From IMG/VR virus record IMGVR_UViG_3300042356_000641, positions 1-30,422 of that record: a DNA stretch of 30,422 nt; one strand, given 5' to 3'. The notes under the pieces were generated by a model. The model was not told the origin of the DNA and did not search any database. It saw only the letters and a list, made by a program, of their open reading frames with translations. The position numbers and the translations under genes are program-made. Positions 5,756 through 30,422 of the stretch are shown here, in pieces (position 1 is the stretch's first letter; each line of letters starts with the position of its first letter). This DNA is from a virus.

Positions 5756-6190
5756 ATGAGCATGATGGAAAATTATGGTGATTATGGGTTGGCTGAGGCG
5801 TCTGCTTTGCGCCGCCGTCAGCGTGGTTCGTTGGCTAATCAGGCTGCAGCGTTTCAGGGGCAGAAGCGTGGTAAGCGCCGTCTTGAGGATGTTAGCCGTG
5901 TTTACACTGAGGGTTATCAGCCGTTGGCGTCTAGTTTTGGTCAGCGTGGTTTGGGTGGTGCAAATGTTAAGTCGGGTATTCGCCGTTCTAGTCTTAGTCG
6001 TTATGCGGAGAAGTTTCAACGGGATTTGGGTGCTGAGACACAGAACATTCAGGATGATTTAAATAATGTTGCGATGCAGGAGGCTGATGAGCAGGCGGAA
6101 CTTGAGGATTATATTGCTCAGTTGCGTTTGCAGAAGGCTCAACAGATTATGGCTACGGCTGCTAGTTTGCAGCAGTATGCCTCTTATTAG
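5756..6190 (+). CDS. Arg/Gln-rich helical virion-module protein
   Basis: 144 residues from ATG 5756 (ATG 5762 or 5765 also possible). An Arg-rich N-terminal third (ALRRRQRGSLANQAAAFQGQK, then RGKRRLEDVSRVY) is followed by a long acidic/Gln-rich helix (IQDDLNNVAMQEADEQAELEDY) and a final Gln/Ala helix. Similar helical proteins encoded just upstream of the giant internal protein of short-tailed phages are often internal virion (ejection) proteins. No family is recognised with confidence. The assignment is by position and composition. Confidence 0.5.
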   Translation: MSMMENYGDYGLAEASALRRRQRGSLANQAAAFQGQKRGKRRLEDVSRVYTEGYQPLASSFGQRGLGGANVKSGIRRSSLSRYAEKFQRDLGAETQNIQDDLNNVAMQEADEQAELEDYIAQLRLQKAQQIMATAASLQQYASY

Positions 6191-6209
6191 GAACATGTAG
6201 GAGATTATT

Positions 6210-7406
6210 GTGGCTAAAGATAAAGACAAAGGTAAAGCACCTAAAAGTACTCAGTCTCAGGCTGACCGTCTTGCTGCTCGGGCTCGGGCTTACGGTCTGA
6301 GTTCTTCGGGTAAAAATATTACCAATGTTGGTGGTGATGTAACTGGTGGTGGATATATTTCTTCTTCTGAAGCCAGACAGCGTGCTTTAGATGCGGCATC
6401 TGACCGTGCTAAGGCTCAAGCAGATTTTATTAAAAAGCAACAAAAATCTGAAGAAAAGTTTGGTCCTAAAACTGGTGGAACTGGTGGTGGAAGTAGTGCT
6501 TTGACTGAGGCTCAGCGTTTGGCTAATGAACTTGCTCGTCTTAAAATTCAAGCGGAATACGATAAGGCTGACCGTGAAGCACAAGAAGTGTTGGATGACC
6601 GTGCGGCGTCAGCACAAGAGAAAGCAGATGCAACTGCTGAACGACAACGCAAATTTGCTGCGTTGTCTGAGGTTGCAAACATTTATGGTCGTCAAGGTGC
6701 GGAAACAGATGCGTTGTATGGTGGACAGTTAGAAGATTTGCCATCACGCAGACAAGCAGATTTGGATGCTTTGCTTCAGGCTGTTAGCGCTGGTAAGGAA
6801 ACTATTACTGGTGCCGAAAACCAGTTCTTGTCCTCGCTTGTTGCGCCACAAGCGTACTCTAATGTTCCGTTAGTAGATTTTTCTACAGCCCAACCCGTCA
6901 ATCCTTTGATGGGTGCGTTAGGTGCTGAAGGTGCTGGTACTGCTGGAGTTACTGGTCAGTCTGCAATGGATGCGCAGTTGGCTGCGCAATATGCACAGTT
7001 GGCTAAAAGTTCTGCTCAACAGTTAAATACTGGTTCACAAAACTATTTGGCAGCGTTGCGTAATGCGGGGACAGGTGCTGCTGCGGCTGGTCGCCAACAA
7101 TTAGGTATGGGTCAAAACATTTATCAGAATCAAATTAACACTAAGTATTCGGATTTGACTAACCAGTTGGCTATGCAGCGTTTGCAGGCGCAGCAAGAGG
7201 CTGCTGCTAGAACTGCTGAGGCTCAGGCTAATGCGGCTCAATATGGTGAAACTCCTGCTGTGATGCCTGTGGTACCACCGTTACCGCCAACAGAACCTCC
7301 TGCGGGTGATGGTGGCGCTGCCGCCGCCGCCGAGGCAGAGCGTAAACGCCGTGAACGAGAAGCCGCCATTGCCGCCCTTAATGCGGCACGCCGTAATCAG
7401 TTTTAA
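6210..7406 (+). CDS. Ala/Gln-rich internal virion protein candidate (398 aa)
   Basis: 398 residues from GTG 6210, with AGGAG (in GTAGGAGATTATT) 9 bases upstream. It has a Lys-rich start, a Gly-rich linker (GGTGGGSS), a long coiled-coil helix at about residues 95-165 rich in Ala/Glu/Arg, Gln/Ala-rich repeats (MDAQLAAQYAQLAKSSAQQLN), a proline-rich segment (VMPVVPPLPPTEPPAGD) and a final basic helix (AERKRREREAAIAALNAARR). Such low-complexity helical proteins beside a giant ORF are typical of ejection proteins that leave the capsid with the DNA. No lytic domain is visible. The Pro-rich hinge could separate a channel part from a DNA- or portal-contact part. Confidence 0.5.
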   Translation: MAKDKDKGKAPKSTQSQADRLAARARAYGLSSSGKNITNVGGDVTGGGYISSSEARQRALDAASDRAKAQADFIKKQQKSEEKFGPKTGGTGGGSSALTEAQRLANELARLKIQAEYDKADREAQEVLDDRAASAQEKADATAERQRKFAALSEVANIYGRQGAETDALYGGQLEDLPSRRQADLDALLQAVSAGKETITGAENQFLSSLVAPQAYSNVPLVDFSTAQPVNPLMGALGAEGAGTAGVTGQSAMDAQLAAQYAQLAKSSAQQLNTGSQNYLAALRNAGTGAAAAGRQQLGMGQNIYQNQINTKYSDLTNQLAMQRLQAQQEAAARTAEAQANAAQYGETPAVMPVVPPLPPTEPPAGDGGAAAAAEAERKRREREAAIAALNAARRNQF

Positions 7407-7424: not shown

Positions 7425-7444
7425 GAACAACTAGAGCATAATTG

Positions 7445-10400
7445 ATGGCGATTACACCGAATCCAGTAACTGCTTTTCGTAAGAGCGGTAAAACACCGCC
7501 TAAACCGCCAAAGTTAGAAGATTACTATAAAACGCTGTATGGGGAAAATGCGCCGACAACACCATCTCCTGTTGTTCAAGAATCAACAAAACCTGTTGTT
7601 TTTAAAGAAGAAAAATCAACCACATCGGAAGAACAGCAAAAGTTACTTACTGGTGCACGAACTGTTCAAGAAAGAATCCGTCTTTCAGAAAGTTTAACTG
7701 CTAAACAGAAACAGGAACTTATTGCGGATGCCGAGCGTATTGCAGCGGGTCAAAAACGAGAAGTTTCTACTGGTGGTCCAACACCATCGTTTATCAAAAA
7801 ACTACAAAATGTTGCTGTTTCTAAAGTGTTATCCCCGTTTAAATCTAGTTACAAGTCGGTTACTACTGCTGGTGGAGATTTTTCGTTGCAGTCTCAAGGT
7901 GAGGCTGTTGCTGGGTTGTTTGGGAAAGTTCTTAACCCAATTAATCGTGTTGGTCAATCTGCTAGCAAAGAGTTGTCTGATTTGCAACTTAGTATAAAAA
8001 ACCCCATATTGAGAGGGGTTGCTAAATCGGCTGGTTCCTTACTGGCAACACCTCTTGCTCAAATTGGTGCTGACATTATAAGTATGGGCAACACAAAAGA
8101 AGAATTGTTAAAACGCCCAGATATCGGTGAAGATAAAATTACACCTAGTTTTACAGATTTTATTAATCAGGCTAAGGACCCTGATTGGGGTTTAAAGAAA
8201 ACTGTTATTGCTAAACGCAATGTTGAGCGTAACAAATATATTGGCACTGTTCAAAACCTTATTTCTGAAGAAATTACTAAACCGTTAAATTATGTTACTG
8301 GTGTTGGTCAAGTTCAATATGTTGGCAAGGCTGGGCGTGCGACCTTGGCAGCAAAGTTTATGACAACAGAAATGTTGGAAAAGTATCCTACGCTGGTTGG
8401 TAAGGCTAATGAAATTAATCGCATCGGCATGTGGGCTATCCCTAGAGAGATTCGTTTGGCTGAAGGTATTAATACTGGTTTGCGTTTGGCTGGTAAACCT
8501 GTGCAATGGACTGAACCCATTGCTGATGTTATTGGTCAAGGTTGGGCTTTGACCCGTGCACAGATTGGTGATATTGCTCGTTCAGTCGTCACTTTGCCTC
8601 TTAGGGCAAAAGGTTTAGGTGATGTGGTTGTCCCCGTGTTCACACCTGCTAGCAGAATAAGTTTGGCTGGTGCTGGAAGAAAAACTTTAGGCGGCGAATA
8701 TATTTTAAACAACACAACAGTTATTCGTGGCTTGGCTGGATGGTCTGCTGCTAACGCTGGTAAGGGTGAAACAGGTCATGCGTACGCATTGTTTACAAGT
8801 GGCGTTAAAGAAATTATTGATGAAGCCCGTGACGCTGGAGTTGCCAGCAAACTAATTAGTCTTATTGAGGACCCCGAGTTACCAAGAACCGCTATTGAAG
8901 ATGGATTAATTAAACGCTATAAGGCTTGGCAAGATAGTGCCTATAAGTCTGTTGAACAAAAATATAAACAGTTTGGTTTTGATTTTGATACTGACATCCC
9001 TGATTTTAGTTTTATTGATAACTATGTTCATCACACAATTACCAAAGATGCTAAAAGTTTTTTGCGTTCCATAGATGCTTTTGGTGCTAAACCGATTCCG
9101 TTCAAAGATAAAAAGACTGGTAAAAAGGTTGTTTTTAATACAAATAATCTTAGTTATAACGAAATTGTTACTGTTGGTGCACCGTTAAAGTTTCGCAGCC
9201 TGAAGGCTGGCGAAGAATTTATGGGTCGCATATTAGAAAAAGGTGGCATTGATGAAATTAACAAAATTTTTAAAGAAGTTTCAGGCACTGATATAAACTT
9301 TTTTGATACCGATATCGGTAATGTTGCTGATTCGTATTCGTTTTCTTTGGCTAAACAGCAAAGCCGTGAAGTGTTTACTAGGCGGTTGATGGCGTATGGT
9401 GAGGACGCTGCGCAAAAATTGATAGATGTTGAAATCCCAAACAAAGCGCTTGCTTCTGAACTAATTAAATCACACAAAGGTTTGGTGGCTGTTCGTAATT
9501 CGTTGCGTAAAGGTGCTGCCAACCAGCGACAAACCTTGGGCGAGATTGTTAATCGTGGCATGAAATATGCTGACGATTTAGTTAAAGAAAATTTGAAACA
9601 ACGCAAACTTACTGAGCGTGAGATTAAAACAACTGTAACAAAACTGCGGGCGTTAGAGTTTGACTTGTCTCGTGCCCGCACTATGGCAAGTACCGTTGAA
9701 GTGTCTATGCGTGAAAACTTTGATGCAACACATTCTGTGTTGTTGGCACAAGTTAAAGAGTTGCGTCAAGCGGTTGAGATTGGTGATGGCGGTTTGGCTG
9801 AGGTGCGCACAACTTTGCAGCAAACATATATGGCGATGTTTCCAAACTCCAAACGGATTCCTGATGATATAAACATTTTGGCTGACCGCATTATGGCGGC
9901 TCGTGGCGCTCCTGTTTCTCGTGAAGCACGAGCCGTTACAGCCGAGTTGCGCAAGATTAATGCACAACTAGATTTGGTGGACCCGAACAGCCCTGAATAT
10001 GCTGCATTGGTGCAGCAAGAAGGCTATTATAAAGATTTGCAAAACGGGTATCGCATTATGGGTGAGGTGCGTTCTGCACAAACTTATGCTCCTGACAACG
10101 GGTTTCTATACACTAGTCAAACCGATTTAGGTTCGCCTGACGCACCGTTTCAGTTGCTTCATAGCGAACCAACAATATTTCAAGGTGCTTCTGATGTGAT
10201 TGGTGTCCATGCTTTTCCTGATAACAAGGTTGTTGATTCACGGACATCGGATGGTATTCAAGAAATATTTGGGTCAGACAACTTTGTTAAAAGCATTGAT
10301 ACACAACTGCAAGATGCTGGGTTGGATGCTGACAGGGTGTTTATCAAAACCTATTATGACTTGAAACAGGGTTTGCCGTTGGACCCAGAAATTGAGCGTG

Positions 10401-13400
10401 GCTATCCAGATTTAGTTAATTTGATTGATGACATATTGGATAATGCTGGTCGTGAGATGCCTGCGGGCGGTGACTCTGATGTTGTTAAAAACATTTATGA
10501 TGATTTTGTTGCATCTATGGTTGGTATTGCGCACATATCGGGTGACCCTGCTGCGGAACAAACTGGCAGAATGATTATAGATTCGGCTTTGGGTGATGTG
10601 GCTTTGGCTGCCGACCTAGAAAGGCAGATGGACGGGTTGTTGTTGCCTGCGAAATTGTTTGATGACACTGCCGAGGATACTGCGATTGTTGTTGTTAAAC
10701 CACAGGACTATATGGTTACACCGTCTAATTCAACTACGGCACCTGTTCAGGGTGCCGACAACCCTGTGTTGGGTTCTATATTGCGTTCTGATTATACGAC
10801 TGCTAGCGAGGCTGCTGCGGGTCGTTTGGCTGCGGCTGCTGGGGCACGCCAAGAAGTTGATGTTGCTCGTAGTTCTATTGCTAGTCGTATTAACGAATTG
10901 ACCGCTCAAAAAGAAATGTTGGCTAAGCAAAAGATACAACGACAGCAAGTTGTTGCTGGTGCACGAGCACAAGTTGCGCAGATTACAGGCACAAAGCAAA
11001 CGGTCAATATTGCTGGGCAGAAAGTTGTGTTGGACCGTGCTGGCATTACAAAAGCATTACAGGCAGCGACAAAAGAAGAAGCAAAGTTGCGCAGAAATTT
11101 AGAGCGTTCTATTGCTCAGTCTGTTAGCAACATTCGTGTTGGTGGACGAGCAAAACAAATTGCTGTTCCTAAACCAAAAGAACTTGAATCCATTATAGAA
11201 AAAGTTGCAGCCAACGAAGGTTTGTCTGTGCGTATGCTGACAGGCAAAGAGCCAAATGTTGGTTATATGGTTGCAAGAAAAGAATTTTCTAGTATTGTTC
11301 CTGCATCGGATTTCTTTGAGAAATCAACTGGTGTAAACATATTGGAATCATATTTCAACAGTAAGAAAGAACAGTTGGGTGGCAAAAACTATCTTGGTGT
11401 TTGGCACGATAAAAAGAACAACGAAGTTGTTTTGGATGTTGTGGACAATATACTTAAAGAAGATGAAGCAATTAGAACTGGTGTTGAAAGAAATCAGCAG
11501 TCAATTTGGGATGTAAAAAATCAAACAGAAATACCGACAGGAGGAACTGGTGGTAGAGAAGAAACAACAGGAGTTCGTGGAATTGATACAGCCACCCAAG
11601 CCGTTAGCAGAAATGTCCCAGCAGGAAATCAGGGCGTTCTCGGAACAGGTGTGGGAACTTCTAGCGCAACAACGCAAACAATCGTAGGTGCGGAAAGAAA
11701 ATTATTAGAGTATCAAGACCGTTTAACGGTTTTGTTTGAACAAGCCAAAACATTAAAACAGTGGAGCGACAGCACAGGTAACGCTTTGCGTAATGAACTT
11801 GCTGCTGTTGGGCAATCTATGCTAGATATGCCTGCAAGGGGTGAGGCTGGTGTTGCTGCCCGTGAGTGGGTACGCAGTGTTCAACGCAGTGTTGAATCCA
11901 CGAAGTTCATTAAAGACAAAACAGTTAAGACGGCATACGAGCGTGTAACACAGTTGTTGCATGTCGGTGAGGTCGGTATGGCTCAAGCAGAGGACGCTGT
12001 TACCGCTAACCGTGAACTACTAGACATTGTTAAGGCTGGCAGGTTTGGTGAAGTTATGGCACCAGTAGAACAAAGGGTGCTTGAAGGATGGGAAGCAATC
12101 CTAGGTTTGGGTGTGCAAGCACCTGAGCAGTTGTTATCTGTGTGGAAACCTAATTTGCAGAAACTTCTTAGCACAGCGAACGCTGGTATGGTTAGACAGT
12201 TTTTGTCCGCTGCAAATAGTTTGTTTAAAACTTATGCGGTAACCAGTGTTGGTTTTGTTGTTCGTAACTCGTATTCGTCTATGTTTATGAACGCTGTCGC
12301 TGGTGTTGATGGCATGACTGCGGTTAAGGGTGTTCAGGCTATGAACGCATACAACAAGCATGGTGCAGCAAAGTGGTTGGATGAACTTGGCATTACGGAC
12401 ACTGTGGTGCGTGGGCAATATGAGCAGGCATTGAAGGCGGCGATTGCAACAGGATTACAGGGGTCGTTTACAGATTTGCGTGAACCTGTTATTGCTGGCA
12501 CGCTCGGTGAGCGTGTAATCAATTTGTTGAATAAAACTGGTTTGGATTCTTTTAGTTTGGGTACACGCATGCAGCCTGCTGCAGAGAACGCAGCGGAGTT
12601 TGTTCGCAAACAAGGATTCTCTACCAACTCGTACACTAGGACTGTTCGCCGTGCGAACACCCGTGTTGAAGCAGCGGTACGATTCCCGATGGCATTAGAC
12701 ACCATATTGAAGGGTGGTAGTTACGATGATGCGGTTGCAAAAGTAACCCGCTACCATTTTGATTATACCGATTTGTCCAAGTTGGATGAGGCTGCGTTGC
12801 AGTTGGTGCCGTTTTGGATTTGGACAACACGAAACATTCCGAATCAAATAACAAACCAGTTTATGCGTCCAAACGCATACAACATTTACGAGAAGGTGCA
12901 ACAGTCGTTGCCTGTTGATAGCAGAGAAATTATCCCTGAATGGCAAGAATCCCGTGAGCCGTTGGGTGTTGGTCGTGGTGATGTGCCGTTGCTGGGTGAG
13001 GGCTATTATACGATTCAACCTGATTTGCCTCAACAAAGATTGCAGGAAAGTTTGCTCTCAATTTTAGACCCACGCAGAATAATTGGTCAGGCGTATCCAG
13101 TTTATAAACTGCCTTTTGAGTTTGTTGCTGGTAGGCAACTTGGGCTTAATGTTGGTCCGTTCCCTGAAAAAACACCTGCTCGTGGGTTGGAGTTAGCCGC
13201 TGTTAATGTTTTGGAAGCAATCGGGTTTGACCCTGTTTATGACAAAGAGGGCAACAAAACAATTAGGGGTTTTACTCAATATGCTTTGGGTAACGCTATT
13301 CCGTTGATTTCCAGATTGCAAAGATTGTCTGGCGGTACTTTGGGTGGTAAAGAAAATTATGCTACCCGAACTGGTCAATCATGGTTGAATGAGTTGGGTA

Positions 13401-13519
13401 TTCCGATTACAATTATTAAAGACGATAATGTTCGTAGTGAGTTGATTAATCGTCAGTTTACTTTGAAAGATTTTACTAAAGAAATGATTAGCCGTAATTT
13501 GATTCCAGCAGAGGATTAA
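7445..13519 (+). CDS. Giant internal virion / DNA-ejection protein (2024 aa)
   Basis: The frame opens with TTG 7442, but ATG 7445 is the natural start. Features in order: a Pro/Thr-rich start; Ala/Gly-rich helices with weakly hydrophobic segments (about 170-215); a 'NYVHHTITKDAKSFL' region near residue 530; coiled coil about 690-790; a mixed alpha/beta region about 900-1090; coiled coil about 1135-1230; a hydrophobic helix near 1590-1610; and a C-terminal part with YHFDYTDL (about 1771) and VPFWIWTTRNIPNQI (about 1789). That last pair is a hallmark I recognise from large polyvalent phage proteins injected with DNA. It probably forms or feeds the trans-envelope channel. No peptidoglycan hydrolase motif was found by eye. 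Confidence 0.62.
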   Translation: MAITPNPVTAFRKSGKTPPKPPKLEDYYKTLYGENAPTTPSPVVQESTKPVVFKEEKSTTSEEQQKLLTGARTVQERIRLSESLTAKQKQELIADAERIAAGQKREVSTGGPTPSFIKKLQNVAVSKVLSPFKSSYKSVTTAGGDFSLQSQGEAVAGLFGKVLNPINRVGQSASKELSDLQLSIKNPILRGVAKSAGSLLATPLAQIGADIISMGNTKEELLKRPDIGEDKITPSFTDFINQAKDPDWGLKKTVIAKRNVERNKYIGTVQNLISEEITKPLNYVTGVGQVQYVGKAGRATLAAKFMTTEMLEKYPTLVGKANEINRIGMWAIPREIRLAEGINTGLRLAGKPVQWTEPIADVIGQGWALTRAQIGDIARSVVTLPLRAKGLGDVVVPVFTPASRISLAGAGRKTLGGEYILNNTTVIRGLAGWSAANAGKGETGHAYALFTSGVKEIIDEARDAGVASKLISLIEDPELPRTAIEDGLIKRYKAWQDSAYKSVEQKYKQFGFDFDTDIPDFSFIDNYVHHTITKDAKSFLRSIDAFGAKPIPFKDKKTGKKVVFNTNNLSYNEIVTVGAPLKFRSLKAGEEFMGRILEKGGIDEINKIFKEVSGTDINFFDTDIGNVADSYSFSLAKQQSREVFTRRLMAYGEDAAQKLIDVEIPNKALASELIKSHKGLVAVRNSLRKGAANQRQTLGEIVNRGMKYADDLVKENLKQRKLTEREIKTTVTKLRALEFDLSRARTMASTVEVSMRENFDATHSVLLAQVKELRQAVEIGDGGLAEVRTTLQQTYMAMFPNSKRIPDDINILADRIMAARGAPVSREARAVTAELRKINAQLDLVDPNSPEYAALVQQEGYYKDLQNGYRIMGEVRSAQTYAPDNGFLYTSQTDLGSPDAPFQLLHSEPTIFQGASDVIGVHAFPDNKVVDSRTSDGIQEIFGSDNFVKSIDTQLQDAGLDADRVFIKTYYDLKQGLPLDPEIERGYPDLVNLIDDILDNAGREMPAGGDSDVVKNIYDDFVASMVGIAHISGDPAAEQTGRMIIDSALGDVALAADLERQMDGLLLPAKLFDDTAEDTAIVVVKPQDYMVTPSNSTTAPVQGADNPVLGSILRSDYTTASEAAAGRLAAAAGARQEVDVARSSIASRINELTAQKEMLAKQKIQRQQVVAGARAQVAQITGTKQTVNIAGQKVVLDRAGITKALQAATKEEAKLRRNLERSIAQSVSNIRVGGRAKQIAVPKPKELESIIEKVAANEGLSVRMLTGKEPNVGYMVARKEFSSIVPASDFFEKSTGVNILESYFNSKKEQLGGKNYLGVWHDKKNNEVVLDVVDNILKEDEAIRTGVERNQQSIWDVKNQTEIPTGGTGGREETTGVRGIDTATQAVSRNVPAGNQGVLGTGVGTSSATTQTIVGAERKLLEYQDRLTVLFEQAKTLKQWSDSTGNALRNELAAVGQSMLDMPARGEAGVAAREWVRSVQRSVESTKFIKDKTVKTAYERVTQLLHVGEVGMAQAEDAVTANRELLDIVKAGRFGEVMAPVEQRVLEGWEAILGLGVQAPEQLLSVWKPNLQKLLSTANAGMVRQFLSAANSLFKTYAVTSVGFVVRNSYSSMFMNAVAGVDGMTAVKGVQAMNAYNKHGAAKWLDELGITDTVVRGQYEQALKAAIATGLQGSFTDLREPVIAGTLGERVINLLNKTGLDSFSLGTRMQPAAENAAEFVRKQGFSTNSYTRTVRRANTRVEAAVRFPMALDTILKGGSYDDAVAKVTRYHFDYTDLSKLDEAALQLVPFWIWTTRNIPNQITNQFMRPNAYNIYEKVQQSLPVDSREIIPEWQESREPLGVGRGDVPLLGEGYYTIQPDLPQQRLQESLLSILDPRRIIGQAYPVYKLPFEFVAGRQLGLNVGPFPEKTPARGLELAAVNVLEAIGFDPVYDKEGNKTIRGFTQYALGNAIPLISRLQRLSGGTLGGKENYATRTGQSWLNELGIPITIIKDDNVRSELINRQFTLKDFTKEMISRNLIPAED

Positions 13520-21774: not shown

Positions 21775-21923
21775 TCATCCCAATCTAAATCTTGGTCATA
21801 CGGATAATCACGCCCATGCTTATAGCGCTGTGAACCCGATTCCCGAGGGATGATATATAAACCAATCATGAACATCAACCAAATGATGCCCCAACATCCG
21901 ATAAAAACTTCCCAAATACTCAT
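21771..21923 (-). CDS. Small membrane protein (50 aa)
   Basis: 50 residues from ATG 21923, overlapping the preceding stop (ATGA), with GAGGAGGACTCAGA upstream. The N-terminal MSIWEVFIGCWGIIWLMFMIG, then LYIIP, is a single membrane segment; the C-terminal half is charged and Tyr/Asp-rich (YKHGRDYPYDQDLDWDD). It ends at TGA 21771-21773. The orientation is likely N-out or N-in with a short cytoplasmic tail. Phage early small membrane proteins often affect host envelope functions or superinfection, but no specific role can be seen. Confidence 0.55.
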   Translation of the reverse strand: MSIWEVFIGCWGIIWLMFMIGLYIIPRESGSQRYKHGRDYPYDQDLDWDD

Positions 21924-22132
21924 TCTGAGTCCTCCTCACAATAATGTTCTTCGCTCTCATCAATCCATTCGGACAACAATTCTTCAAGAACTTCGTTGCC
22001 GAACTCAACTACACGACATGACAATTCGTTAGAAATTTCGTCTAACACGAACTCGCATTTGTTCTCATGCCAAGTGGGCTGATGCCCTTGTATGTCCTCG
22101 GGTATCCATTTCACTATTACTTCGTAACCCAT
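21920..22132 (-). CDS. Small acidic protein after the ribozyme (70 aa)
   Basis: The frame extends to 22150, but GGAGGT followed by ATG 22132 is the proper start: MGYEVIVKWIPEDIQGHQPT. It is strongly acidic, with an Asp/Glu-rich end (EWIDESEEHYCEEDSE). It is the first gene downstream of the hammerhead ribozyme at 22159-22225, so after cleavage its mRNA would begin just upstream of it. Composition is like small DNA-mimic or inhibitor proteins, which is only a possibility. Confidence 0.55.
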   Translation of the reverse strand: MGYEVIVKWIPEDIQGHQPTWHENKCEFVLDEISNELSCRVVEFGNEVLEELLSEWIDESEEHYCEEDSE

Positions 22133-22158: not shown

Positions 22159-22225
22159 GGACTCATCAGCAACCGCAACACGGTTAGACACCCACAACAC
22201 ACAACACGCTGTGGGCGTTTCGTCC
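22159..22225 (-). ncRNA. Type II hammerhead self-cleaving ribozyme
   Basis: On the minus strand, 5' to 3': GGAC (22225-22222), GAAA (22221-22218), CGCCCACA (22217-22210), a 13-base loop, TGTGGGTG (22196-22189), then TC (22188-22187; cleavage expected after 22187). Next come TAACCG (22186-22181), loop TGTTG, CGGTTG (22175-22170), CTGATGA (22169-22163) and GTCC (22162-22159). Stem III is 8 bp, stem I 6 bp with one wobble, stem II 4 bp (GTCC with GGAC), open-ended: the type II topology. Every core base of the hammerhead (CUGAUGA, GAAA, the A-U pair, C17) is present. It sits between the VWA-like gene (stop 22236) and the next start (22132). Confidence 0.88.
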
Positions 22226-22235
22226 TAAAGGTTTG

Positions 22236-23051
22236 TTATATCAACTCCATTCCCTTGATTGTGGACACAACCCATTCCACAGGGTTCTCCATCATCGTGC
22301 TGAACCGCTCCTTGAGGCGTTCAATGCGAATGTCTGCACCATAATCAGCCGCATACTCTGTATGTGTTGTCGCACCATACGAATGTCTAGAACCGCACCC
22401 AGCGAGTTCACGAACCGAGAATGTGATACGCCTCAGCATTGACGGGTTCGCCAAAGCGAACATCAACTCATCAATGTCCATCTGAGCCGTAGCGTCATGC
22501 AACTTGACAACCGTAGAGTGAACCCGATTACCGAAGGTAACCGCAGTCTCGCCCCACACTTCACAAGCGACACGCATCTTCTGCAAAGTGTCCACCAAAG
22601 CACACAGCACAATGCCACGCTGACGAATGAACTCGGCACTGAATGATGCAGATGCACCGTAGTCAATGAATATTTTGACCACACGACCCATACGCTCATT
22701 CGGCATCGGAACGAAACTGTACATGCATTCAGGTTCGCCAGTTAGCCAACGACCCACATCAACAGCACCACCTGAGGTCGCATATTCCAACTCCGAAACC
22801 ATATCCAAACGGTTATCAATCTGCTCAGACAATTGCGACATGATTCGCTCAACCTCGGGACGAACCGCATGCCAGCCCTCAACAGCCAACTTGTGAGCCT
22901 CCGCATAGTTCGCAGTTTCACAAAATGTGGTATCGCCTTTATCTGATTGCTGTTTGTTCGGGTTCGCATTGGCATAAGCCAACATGTCACCAAACGAATC
23001 AAACTTATCTAGCAGAATGTTCTTACCATTAACCCAAGTTAATGTACCCAT
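22236..23051 (-). CDS. Partner of MoxR ATPase with VWA-like segment (271 aa)
   Basis: 271 residues from ATG 23051, with GGGAGGT 8 bases before. N-terminal half: YAEAHKLAVEGWHAVRPEVER (about 49-69) and GAVDVGRWLTGEPECMYSF (about 95-113), patterns I have seen in phage proteins of unknown function next to MoxR-like ATPases. Residues 123-170 (RVVKIFIDYGASASFSAEF, GIVLCALVDTLQKM, ACEVWGE) look like the first strand, a degraded metal-site loop (D130, S134, S136) and the first helix of a VWA domain. MoxR ATPases and VWA proteins work as pairs in bacteria. The direct neighbour is the MoxR-like gene. Confidence 0.5.
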   Translation of the reverse strand: MGTLTWVNGKNILLDKFDSFGDMLAYANANPNKQQSDKGDTTFCETANYAEAHKLAVEGWHAVRPEVERIMSQLSEQIDNRLDMVSELEYATSGGAVDVGRWLTGEPECMYSFVPMPNERMGRVVKIFIDYGASASFSAEFIRQRGIVLCALVDTLQKMRVACEVWGETAVTFGNRVHSTVVKLHDATAQMDIDELMFALANPSMLRRITFSVRELAGCGSRHSYGATTHTEYAADYGADIRIERLKERFSTMMENPVEWVVSTIKGMELI

Positions 23052-23102: not shown

Positions 23103-24353
23103 CTAGATAGTGACACCAGCCATCACCTTGTCCAACTGCTCAGGCTTGAGTCCAGCGGTTATCTGTGTCGCAAACGCCTTCGCAGGAGCCATTCCAGCAC
23201 CAATCTGTTTGGCACCATTCAGTGTGTTGCGTGGGGTAACCAACACTCGCAACCCAGCACTGAACACATTGGCTCGTGCTTTGCGAATCGCTGTTATCCA
23301 CAGACGGGACACATCCAACGACAAGCCAACCGAATTAAGCATCGCATCTTCAACATTCTCATCAATGTCAATGTCAATCGTTGCAAAACGATTCAGAAAC
23401 GCCTTGTCAATCGGGTTACGCCCCACATACTCGGCAGTAGCACCGTTACCGTAGGTATTCGCTGTGGCAATCGCAACGAAATTCGGATGCCGTGAAACCA
23501 TGCCATCGGCAAACGCCATAGCATCGTTCGCAAGGGCACTGTTTAACACATTGAGCACATTCGGGTTGCCGTTGTCCACTTCGTCCAGCAAGAACACACC
23601 GCCATGCTCAAAGATACGGCGAAACTCGGTACCAACATAGTTGCCACCGCCAGCCATATAGCCCACCAACGCCGATTCAGGAGTCTGCCCCGAAACCGAC
23701 TTGGATGCAAACGGCACATTCAAAGAATCAGCAACCTGCTTACCAATCGTAGATTTACCTGTACCAGCAGAACCCACAAGGTAAGCATGGACACCAGCAC
23801 CAACAGTGTGCAAAATATCGGTAAACCGATTATGCAAAACACCTTGAATCTGAACCGTAGGTTTATTGGCAACCGTGATATTCATGACCTGAGGACGAAG
23901 CGAATCAATCTGCTTGGTAACCTCATGCTTGAAGCCATTAAACAGTGGGTCAATCGCATCGGCAACTAGTTGCTGAACTTGTGTTTCATCAACCCCAGCC
24001 TTGAACTTGTCCAATGCAACTTGCACCGCATTATGCACCACAAGTTGAATCGCACCATCCAACGAACCAGCCGAAACCGTAGGTTGAGGAACCACTACGG
24101 GCTCATAAGGCACTGAATGTACAGGAGGCGAATAAACAATAAATGGCTTGCCATTCACAATGGCATCATTAATCGCAACCAGCGAATGATACTGAGCAGG
24201 TTTACCCTTGAAATAGATACCGAGAAAATTGCATAAAGCAATCTTCTCGTTTTTCACACAATCACTAAAGTGTTTAGTGCTGTTGTCCTCAAAAGTGACA
24301 ACATAATTACTTGAGTCATATCCTATGACTTTTAACGATTTAACTGCACTCAT
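23103..24353 (-). CDS. MoxR/CbbQ-type AAA+ ATPase
   Basis: 416 residues from ATG 24353, with GGGAGGT 8 bases upstream. The N-terminal 165 residues are family-specific (SLKVIGYDSSNYVVTFED and a helical region); the AAA+ core follows: Walker A GSAGTGKS (194-201), Walker B VFLLDEVD (253-260), sensor 1 IATANT (295-300), Arg finger region FLNRF (319-323). The order and spacing match MoxR/CbbQ ATPases, chaperones that remodel partner proteins, usually with VWA-domain partners. It may mature or disassemble a phage or host complex. Its leader has two perfect hairpins and a clear promoter, so it may be expressed early. Confidence 0.7.
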   Translation of the reverse strand: MSAVKSLKVIGYDSSNYVVTFEDNSTKHFSDCVKNEKIALCNFLGIYFKGKPAQYHSLVAINDAIVNGKPFIVYSPPVHSVPYEPVVVPQPTVSAGSLDGAIQLVVHNAVQVALDKFKAGVDETQVQQLVADAIDPLFNGFKHEVTKQIDSLRPQVMNITVANKPTVQIQGVLHNRFTDILHTVGAGVHAYLVGSAGTGKSTIGKQVADSLNVPFASKSVSGQTPESALVGYMAGGGNYVGTEFRRIFEHGGVFLLDEVDNGNPNVLNVLNSALANDAMAFADGMVSRHPNFVAIATANTYGNGATAEYVGRNPIDKAFLNRFATIDIDIDENVEDAMLNSVGLSLDVSRLWITAIRKARANVFSAGLRVLVTPRNTLNGAKQIGAGMAPAKAFATQITAGLKPEQLDKVMAGVTI

Positions 24354-29714: not shown

Positions 29715-30422
29715 CTAGGTGGCTTATACCGCTACCAGCAATCCTGTTTGCGGTTATACCGCAAAATGCTAACGCAGAACCAGTTGCGGGTTTAGCAACC
29801 ACCTATTATACGATTGATGTAATCCCGCCAGTTCAATCAACTGACGAATACCCTGTCTGCGGAACTGAGACAGAAAACAATATAAACCGTTCCTATGATG
29901 GTGAACCATACGAGGATTGCACAGGCGACCTGTTCATGGTTCACATGACAGGGTACATAAACATCCCTGAACACAACACGATTGAGTTCATGCTCGCTCA
30001 CGATGATGGTGGTGAGATAACTATTGACGGCAACACATTCGGTGTTTGGAATGACCAAGGTTGTTCGTGGAGTATGTCGGACGAACTAGAACTTGACGCT
30101 GGGAGTTTGCCGCTTCAGTTGTTTATGTATGAGAACGGCGGTGCGTCCTGCCTGATGCTCGCATGGAACATTGATGATGAAGGCTGGGCGATAGTCCCAG
30201 ACTCGGCGTTCACTACTAGTAGTAGCCCAACCACCACAACAACAACCACGACCACGACAACCACAAGCACGCTGCCAGAGACAACAACAACAACTTCAAC
30301 CACGACTTCATCTACGACAACCCTTCCCATACAAACGACCACAACGACTTCAACAACTCTTGCACCAACAACCACGCAAACGACAACAACAACGACAGTG
30401 CCTGCCACCACAACGACAACAA
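29702..30422 (+). CDS. Exported PA14-like protein with Thr-rich linker (partial)
   Basis: Open from ATG 29702 to the right edge with no stop, overlapping the preceding gene by 13 bases. MRNLTRWLIPLPAILFAVIP, then QNANAEPVAG is a secretion signal with two Arg, a hydrophobic core and an A-N-A cleavage site. Residues about 35-165 look like a PA14 domain: EFMLAHDDGGEITIDGNTF and LQLFMYENGGASCLMLAW are its typical strands. From about residue 175 a Thr-rich linker (SSSPTTTTT..., TTTLP, TTTVPATTT) runs out of the window. PA14 domains bind carbohydrates. In phages a signal peptide is rare, so it may act outside the host cell. Confidence 0.65.
   Translation, partial: MRNLTRWLIPLPAILFAVIPQNANAEPVAGLATTYYTIDVIPPVQSTDEYPVCGTETENNINRSYDGEPYEDCTGDLFMVHMTGYINIPEHNTIEFMLAHDDGGEITIDGNTFGVWNDQGCSWSMSDELELDAGSLPLQLFMYENGGASCLMLAWNIDDEGWAIVPDSAFTTSSSPTTTTTTTTTTTTSTLPETTTTTSTTTSSTTTLPIQTTTTTSTTLAPTTTQTTTTTTVPATTTTT

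Follow-up and report, generated by a model that had tools for sequence, protein, structure and literature searches.

The gap at 22235–22133 on the minus strand of an uncultivated phage genome raises the question of whether an early-gene transcript carries its own self-cutting site and, if so, what cleavage would do to that transcript. The window (the whole stretch of DNA analyzed, 30,422 bases) is an IMG/VR virus record with the gene content of a tailed phage. The gap is 103 nt long and separates the stop codon of a DUF7192 gene (22238–22236) from the ATG of a small gene for an acidic protein (22132). An earlier note had placed in it a complete type II hammerhead ribozyme (HHR) with all core residues in order, lying between a VWA-like gene and a small acidic gene of an early operon. 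The location is verified, and the coordinates and helix lengths (stem III, 8 bp; stem I, 6 bp; stem II, 4 bp) are exact to the base.

Anatomy of the element and its proposed role

The features of the locus, in the direction of transcription, are:

23103–24353 (−): AAA ATPase gene, MoxR/CobS-like, first of the upstream pair (PF07728, E = 8.8e-16; phrog_249)
22236–23051 (−): upstream gene, DUF7192, tentatively VWA-like (PF23822, E = 2.7e-36; weak Foldseek match to NorD VWA domain)
22226 (−): A immediately 5′ of stem II, almost invariant in the subclass (present in 123 of the 124 members listed)
22159–22225 (−): type II HHR, stem II to stem II (54.5 bits with the hold-out model described below; 23.2 bits with RF02276)
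22222–22225 (−): stem II 5′ arm GGAC, the open stem, pairing with 22162–22159
22218–22221 (−): core GAAA, invariant in both HHR alignments made (A1, A2)
22189–22217 (−): stem III hairpin in the predicted fold, 8 bp and more; substitutions in relatives keep the pairing
22217–22210 (−): stem III 5′ arm, CGCCCACA
22196–22189 (−): stem III 3′ arm, UGUGGGUG, including the G of GUC
22187–22189 (−): GUC cleavage triplet; cut predicted after C22187, the hammerhead consensus cleavage position
22170–22186 (−): stem I hairpin UAACCG-UGUUG-CGGUUG, 17 nt, 6 bp with pentaloop UGUUG
22163–22169 (−): core CUGAUGA
22159–22162 (−): stem II 3′ arm GUCC
21920–22132 (−): downstream gene, 70 aa, acidic; open reading frame with a GGAGG ribosome-binding site

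Read on the minus strand, 22225–22159 is GGAC-GAAA-CGCCCACA...UGUGGGUG-UC-UAACCG-UGUUG-CGGUUG-CUGAUGA-GUCC. CUGANGA, GAAA, and a UH cleavage site stand in the hammerhead order around three helices, and stem II is open while loops close stems I and III, which is the type II arrangement. The element begins 10 nt after the upstream stop codon and ends 26 nt before the downstream ATG. In the minimum-energy fold, stem III grows to 12 pairs, including the A15.1–U16.1 core pair, and the fold energy has a z value of −2.5 against shuffles. At the HHR site no other RNA family reaches its Rfam cut-off, and a scan of the gap lists neither an intrinsic terminator nor a promoter.

The genes around the gap lie on the same strand in the order MoxR/CobS-like AAA, DUF7192, small genes, DUF3846, PD-(D/E)XK nuclease, DnaB-like helicase, and primase. 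The cluster is a putative early operon, a designation that fits the presence on a single strand of primase, DnaB-like helicase, PD-(D/E)XK nuclease, and MoxR-type AAA genes. The designation of the DUF7192 gene as VWA-like is weakly supported: its Pfam family is DUF7192, and its AlphaFold model (mean pLDDT 70, medium confidence) has as top PDB matches NorD VWA domains complexed with MoxR-type NorQ, the best at E = 0.011 and all at or above that value, with a TM-score of 0.30; this structural search yields no match below E 0.001. Because the AAA gene adjoins the DUF7192 gene, a MoxR–VWA pair is plausible. No near DNA match to the window was found among named phage relatives. DUF7192 relatives occur in mycobacteriophages such as LeBron at 29–30% identity, and no HHR of the subclass described below was found near them. 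Ahead of the AAA gene, in the intergenic gap, 24474–24445 (−) resembles an extended −10 promoter (TTGAAA, 18 nt, TATACT, with TG before it); sites of this kind are as numerous as expected by chance. Elsewhere in the window, an open frame of 2025 aa on the opposite strand (7442–13519, +), for which 50,697 phage records yield only two matches, both weak and partial, probably encodes a virion protein, and a threonine-rich simple repeat occupies 30115–30421 at the contig end, within an open frame truncated there.

The element is very probably a cis-acting, short-loop type II HHR that splits the early-gene transcript by cotranscriptional self-cleavage, as predicted from its anatomy and setting. The RNA would fold during transcription of the operon and then cut itself after C22187. 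The upstream product, carrying the AAA and DUF7192 genes, would have the stem III hairpin and a 2′,3′-cyclic phosphate at its 3′ end, and the downstream product, carrying the small acidic gene, DUF3846, and the replication genes, would start 54 nt before its start codon with a 5′-OH and the stem I hairpin; these hairpin-capped ends are predicted from the type II order of parts. The MoxR/VWA-like pair would be separated in this way from the genes downstream, and one long early mRNA would become units whose decay and translation could be set separately, without a host nuclease. Cleavage in the cell and the effect of the capped ends, including any on stability, are what we infer from these features.

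It is improbable, though the least so of the alternatives, that an active HHR serves mainly to make the downstream gene accessible for translation, with ACCUUUA in the uncut leader pairing with the ribosome-binding site UGGAGGU and the cut leaving the two on separate molecules. When the whole gap is folded, the minimum-energy structure does pair ACCUUUA, which lies just 5′ of stem II, with UGGAGGU; however, ACCUUUA is missing from the related phages L135 and L136, which retain the HHR, and short GGAGG pairings easily arise by chance.

The same gap in related phages

In contigs that are nearly identical to the window, the HHR is identical as well. L135 and L136 have an HHR at the same gap that is 97% identical to that of the window over 67 bases; amino-acid identity to the window is 52% for the AAA protein and 38% for DUF7192, and DNA identity is about 61% in the upstream coding region and 67–83% in the downstream genes. 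The acidic 70-aa gene is conserved in these two phages and in a third, L133. L135 and L136 each have two substitutions in the HHR, all in the stem III 5′ arm (CGCCCACA in the window, CACUCACA in L135, and CACCUACA in L136, all facing the 3′ arm UGUGGGUG), and each leaves a standard pair. Stem III is thus the only helix that varies at the window's own site, its pairing is always kept, and all core bases are intact in both relatives as in the window. Loop III and the stem I bases match more closely between the window and L135/L136 than cleavage by itself would demand, so that this conservation may reflect either recent cassette transfer or selection.

The closest relative of the window, L133 (81–84% nucleotide identity in the two upstream genes), has no HHR at this gap according to the hold-out model, and the HHR is therefore dispensable there. 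Its absence from L133 and presence in L135 and L136 reflect either loss in L133 or cassette transfer. The L133 gap (6127–6210, equivalent to about 4817–4900 in contig L003) has a possible H-type pseudoknot, CGGC-UCGUUGC-GCCG with a downstream GCAACG, followed by a 12-bp GC hairpin, and resembles a leader able to form a pseudoknot, with a long hairpin behind it. A different ribozyme in this gap was considered and rejected: for the 401-bp stretch, the best Rfam result is a match to a microRNA model at E = 4.

A decayed or inactive hammerhead, whose hairpins are kept for stabilizing mRNA ends or spacing genes, is a shade less probable still than translational release. Such a reading draws on L133, L137–L139, and L141–L143, in which the gap after DUF7192 has no HHR and is occupied by a strong, plain GC-rich hairpin without a U tract, long in all of them except L133 by description of the gap itself. 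Yet the core bases are intact in the window, L135, and L136, the substitutions preserve pairing, and a plain hairpin would not keep GAAA, GUC, and CUGAUGA. In five of these relatives (L137, L139, L141, L142, and L143), CCUCC occurs in or near the loop of the hairpin and could pair with the GGAGG of the next gene.

Transcript splitting by an active HHR has a parallel in the early mRNAs of T7-like phages, where RNase III processing divides a polycistronic mRNA at intergenic hairpins. As at those sites, the split proposed here is intergenic and in an early mRNA, and relatives bear plain hairpins at the same gap. Unlike the T7-like hairpins, which require host RNase III, the HHR would cut alone.

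Chance, covariance models, and covariation

A loosely defined type II anatomy has a single match in the window, and 300 dinucleotide-shuffled versions of the window together give one more (about 0.003 per window by chance). Scanned for the structure, 1.18 Mb of loci, most of which had been selected for the core motif, give 103 matches on the forward sequence and none on the reversed sequence. The Rfam type II model (RF02276, Rfam 15) aligns over all its 66 positions to the window HHR but scores 23.2 bits where the cut-off is 37, so that the Infernal check proposed in the earlier note fails the curated threshold; the accompanying remark that the circularly permuted form is easy to miss is fair, since this cut-off overlooks the element.

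Because of the low Rfam score, a hold-out covariance model was trained on 45 phage type II HHRs that also have a 17-nt stem I but lie outside this family. It scores the window HHR at 54.5 bits (E = 1.3e-12 over 184 kb); within the window alone, the HHR has E = 2.1e-13 and the runner-up E = 0.39, leaving one copy only, and all these E-values are rough because model calibration was short. The training rows had been picked for intact stems, so that their own pairing is no test, and the informative part is the window score. A search of the relatives with RF02276 overlooks the HHRs of L135 and L136, both of which the hold-out model recovers.

Several independent sequence tests thus confirm the element as a genuine type II HHR. 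Chance resemblance to a hammerhead, for which one may cite the Rfam score under the gathering cut-off and the sub-threshold RF02276 matches in 5 of 14 control genomes, is ruled out for practical purposes by the shuffles, the hold-out E of about 1e-12, and the conservation at the same gap in the diverged L135 and L136.

In more distant phages the operon order gp124–AAA–DUF7192–…–DUF3846 is maintained, and the hold-out model finds HHRs at other gaps, directly upstream of the AAA gene (L137, L140, L141) and directly upstream of DUF3846 (L137, L139, L141). Compensatory changes in related phages, which the earlier note had proposed to look for, are present: among 12 clade HHRs, a set to which some genomes contribute more than one gap and whose structure was known in advance, 100% of cells are paired and 12 of the 18 pairs have changed on both sides. 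This covariation exceeds all 500 shuffles (0/500) and all slid controls. All six stem I pairs covary, and stem II is 100% paired, with only one of its four pairs variable.

An identical stem III hairpin in L139 (2973–3049) and L141 (6704–6780), at different gaps in two phages, suggests that HHRs may be copied between sites. This observation, together with the part HHRs play in plant retrozymes, would also suit an HHR for RNA circularization or for a mobile, retrozyme-like RNA rather than for mRNA processing, but a single copy in the window and the stereotyped between-gene position in the subclass make that use most improbable.

A short-loop subclass without the loop I–tail pseudoknot

Phage HHRs have been known since 2011, when type II HHRs were reported in prophages and a role in mRNA processing was proposed (Perreault et al., 2011, PMC3088659). 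Clustered HHRs of three bacteria self-cleave during in vitro transcription, the Agrobacterium tumefaciens set also when expressed in Escherichia coli, and phage transcripts were proposed to be processed by HHRs into operon- or gene-length mRNAs (PMC3088659). A 2017 review regards the role of prokaryotic HHRs as open and notes their persistent link to phages (PMC6155905). The window HHR is one more member of this known type, whose processing role was proposed in 2011. It shares with Hammerhead_II (RF02276, PMC3088659) the GAAA/GUC/CUGAUGA core, the open stem II, the closed stems I and III, and the intergenic position among phage or prophage genes, where such HHRs are often clustered. Unlike Hammerhead_II, it has a 17-nt stem I hairpin with a pentaloop and a 4-bp stem II, and it lacks the pseudoknot of at least four pairs between loop I and the 3′ tail that belongs to the type II consensus as published; HHRs without this pseudoknot are also noted in PMC3088659. 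In the window, loop I and the tail 3′ of stem II can form two Watson–Crick pairs in a row, or four counting G–U, and these tail bases are altered in L135 and L136.

The type III hammerhead of sTRSV has the same 4-bp stem II, GUCC/GGAC; unlike it, the window HHR has stem II open and stem III closed. A loop U of the window HHR and an A close by could form a reverse-Hoogsteen contact of the kind reported for type I and III hammerheads (PMC6155905), and the role of loop II in the sTRSV type would then presumably pass to flanking A bases.

The subclass is defined here by a stem I of 17–18 nt with 6 bp, a 4-bp stem II, a U-N-A-N-G loop, an A before stem II, and a position between a stop codon and a ribosome-binding site. 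The window HHR fits it (17 nt, 6 bp, 4 bp, A22226), with a loop, UGUUG, whose third base is not the usual A. At least 119 stretches of viral contigs match a search pattern in which stem II must read GUCC/GGAC and the 17 bases separating GUC from CUGAUGA are left free; across bacterial and archaeal genomes, 257 billion bases in all, the identical pattern matches only 12. The 17 free bases form six stem I pairs in 98–100% of the 124 unique matches listed, against 39–65% in a shuffled-partner control, and among these listed matches loop I is mostly U-N-A-N-G. The loop I–tail pseudoknot is absent from the subclass: four or more Watson–Crick pairs occur in 7 of 239 members, against 12.6 in shuffles, whereas the long-loop HHRs of the same loci, serving as a positive control, have the pseudoknot in 55 of 67, against 18.

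Placement between genes is consistent. An upstream stop codon lies within 200 nt of 181 of the 198 subclass HHRs (median, 2 nt), a ribosome-binding site and start codon lie within 150 nt downstream of 181 (median, 25 nt), and 166 have both the stop upstream and the ribosome-binding site downstream. By crude open-reading-frame calls, 48 of the 198 overlap a same-strand frame of at least 100 aa, compared with 372 of 600 random positions.

It is quite possible, though still tentative, that short-loop, pseudoknot-free type II HHRs constitute a large, largely unannotated, phage-biased subclass of self-contained intergenic cutters, which change gaps and alternate with plain hairpins within the early operon of one phage lineage, and that they would thereby provide mRNA processing independent of host nucleases. 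A single HHR confirms a known idea; the added value lies in the subclass, which is an annotation gap, and in a natural comparison set within one lineage, where the same gaps of a conserved early operon hold an HHR, a plain hairpin, or neither. This bears on the question, standing since 2011, of what HHRs do in phages.

Many self-cutting sites in phage genomes probably go unlabelled, a prediction based on 14 phage loci in which the hold-out model finds 68 candidates, a count that is not fully independent because about one third of the training rows come from those loci, and in which 3 of the 68 reach the Rfam 15 cut-off. No locus has two or more HHRs on both strands, and the median spacing over all arrays is 583 nt. 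Arrays of 7–11 type II HHRs, each on one strand, occur in L205, L203, L054, L248, L110, and L195.
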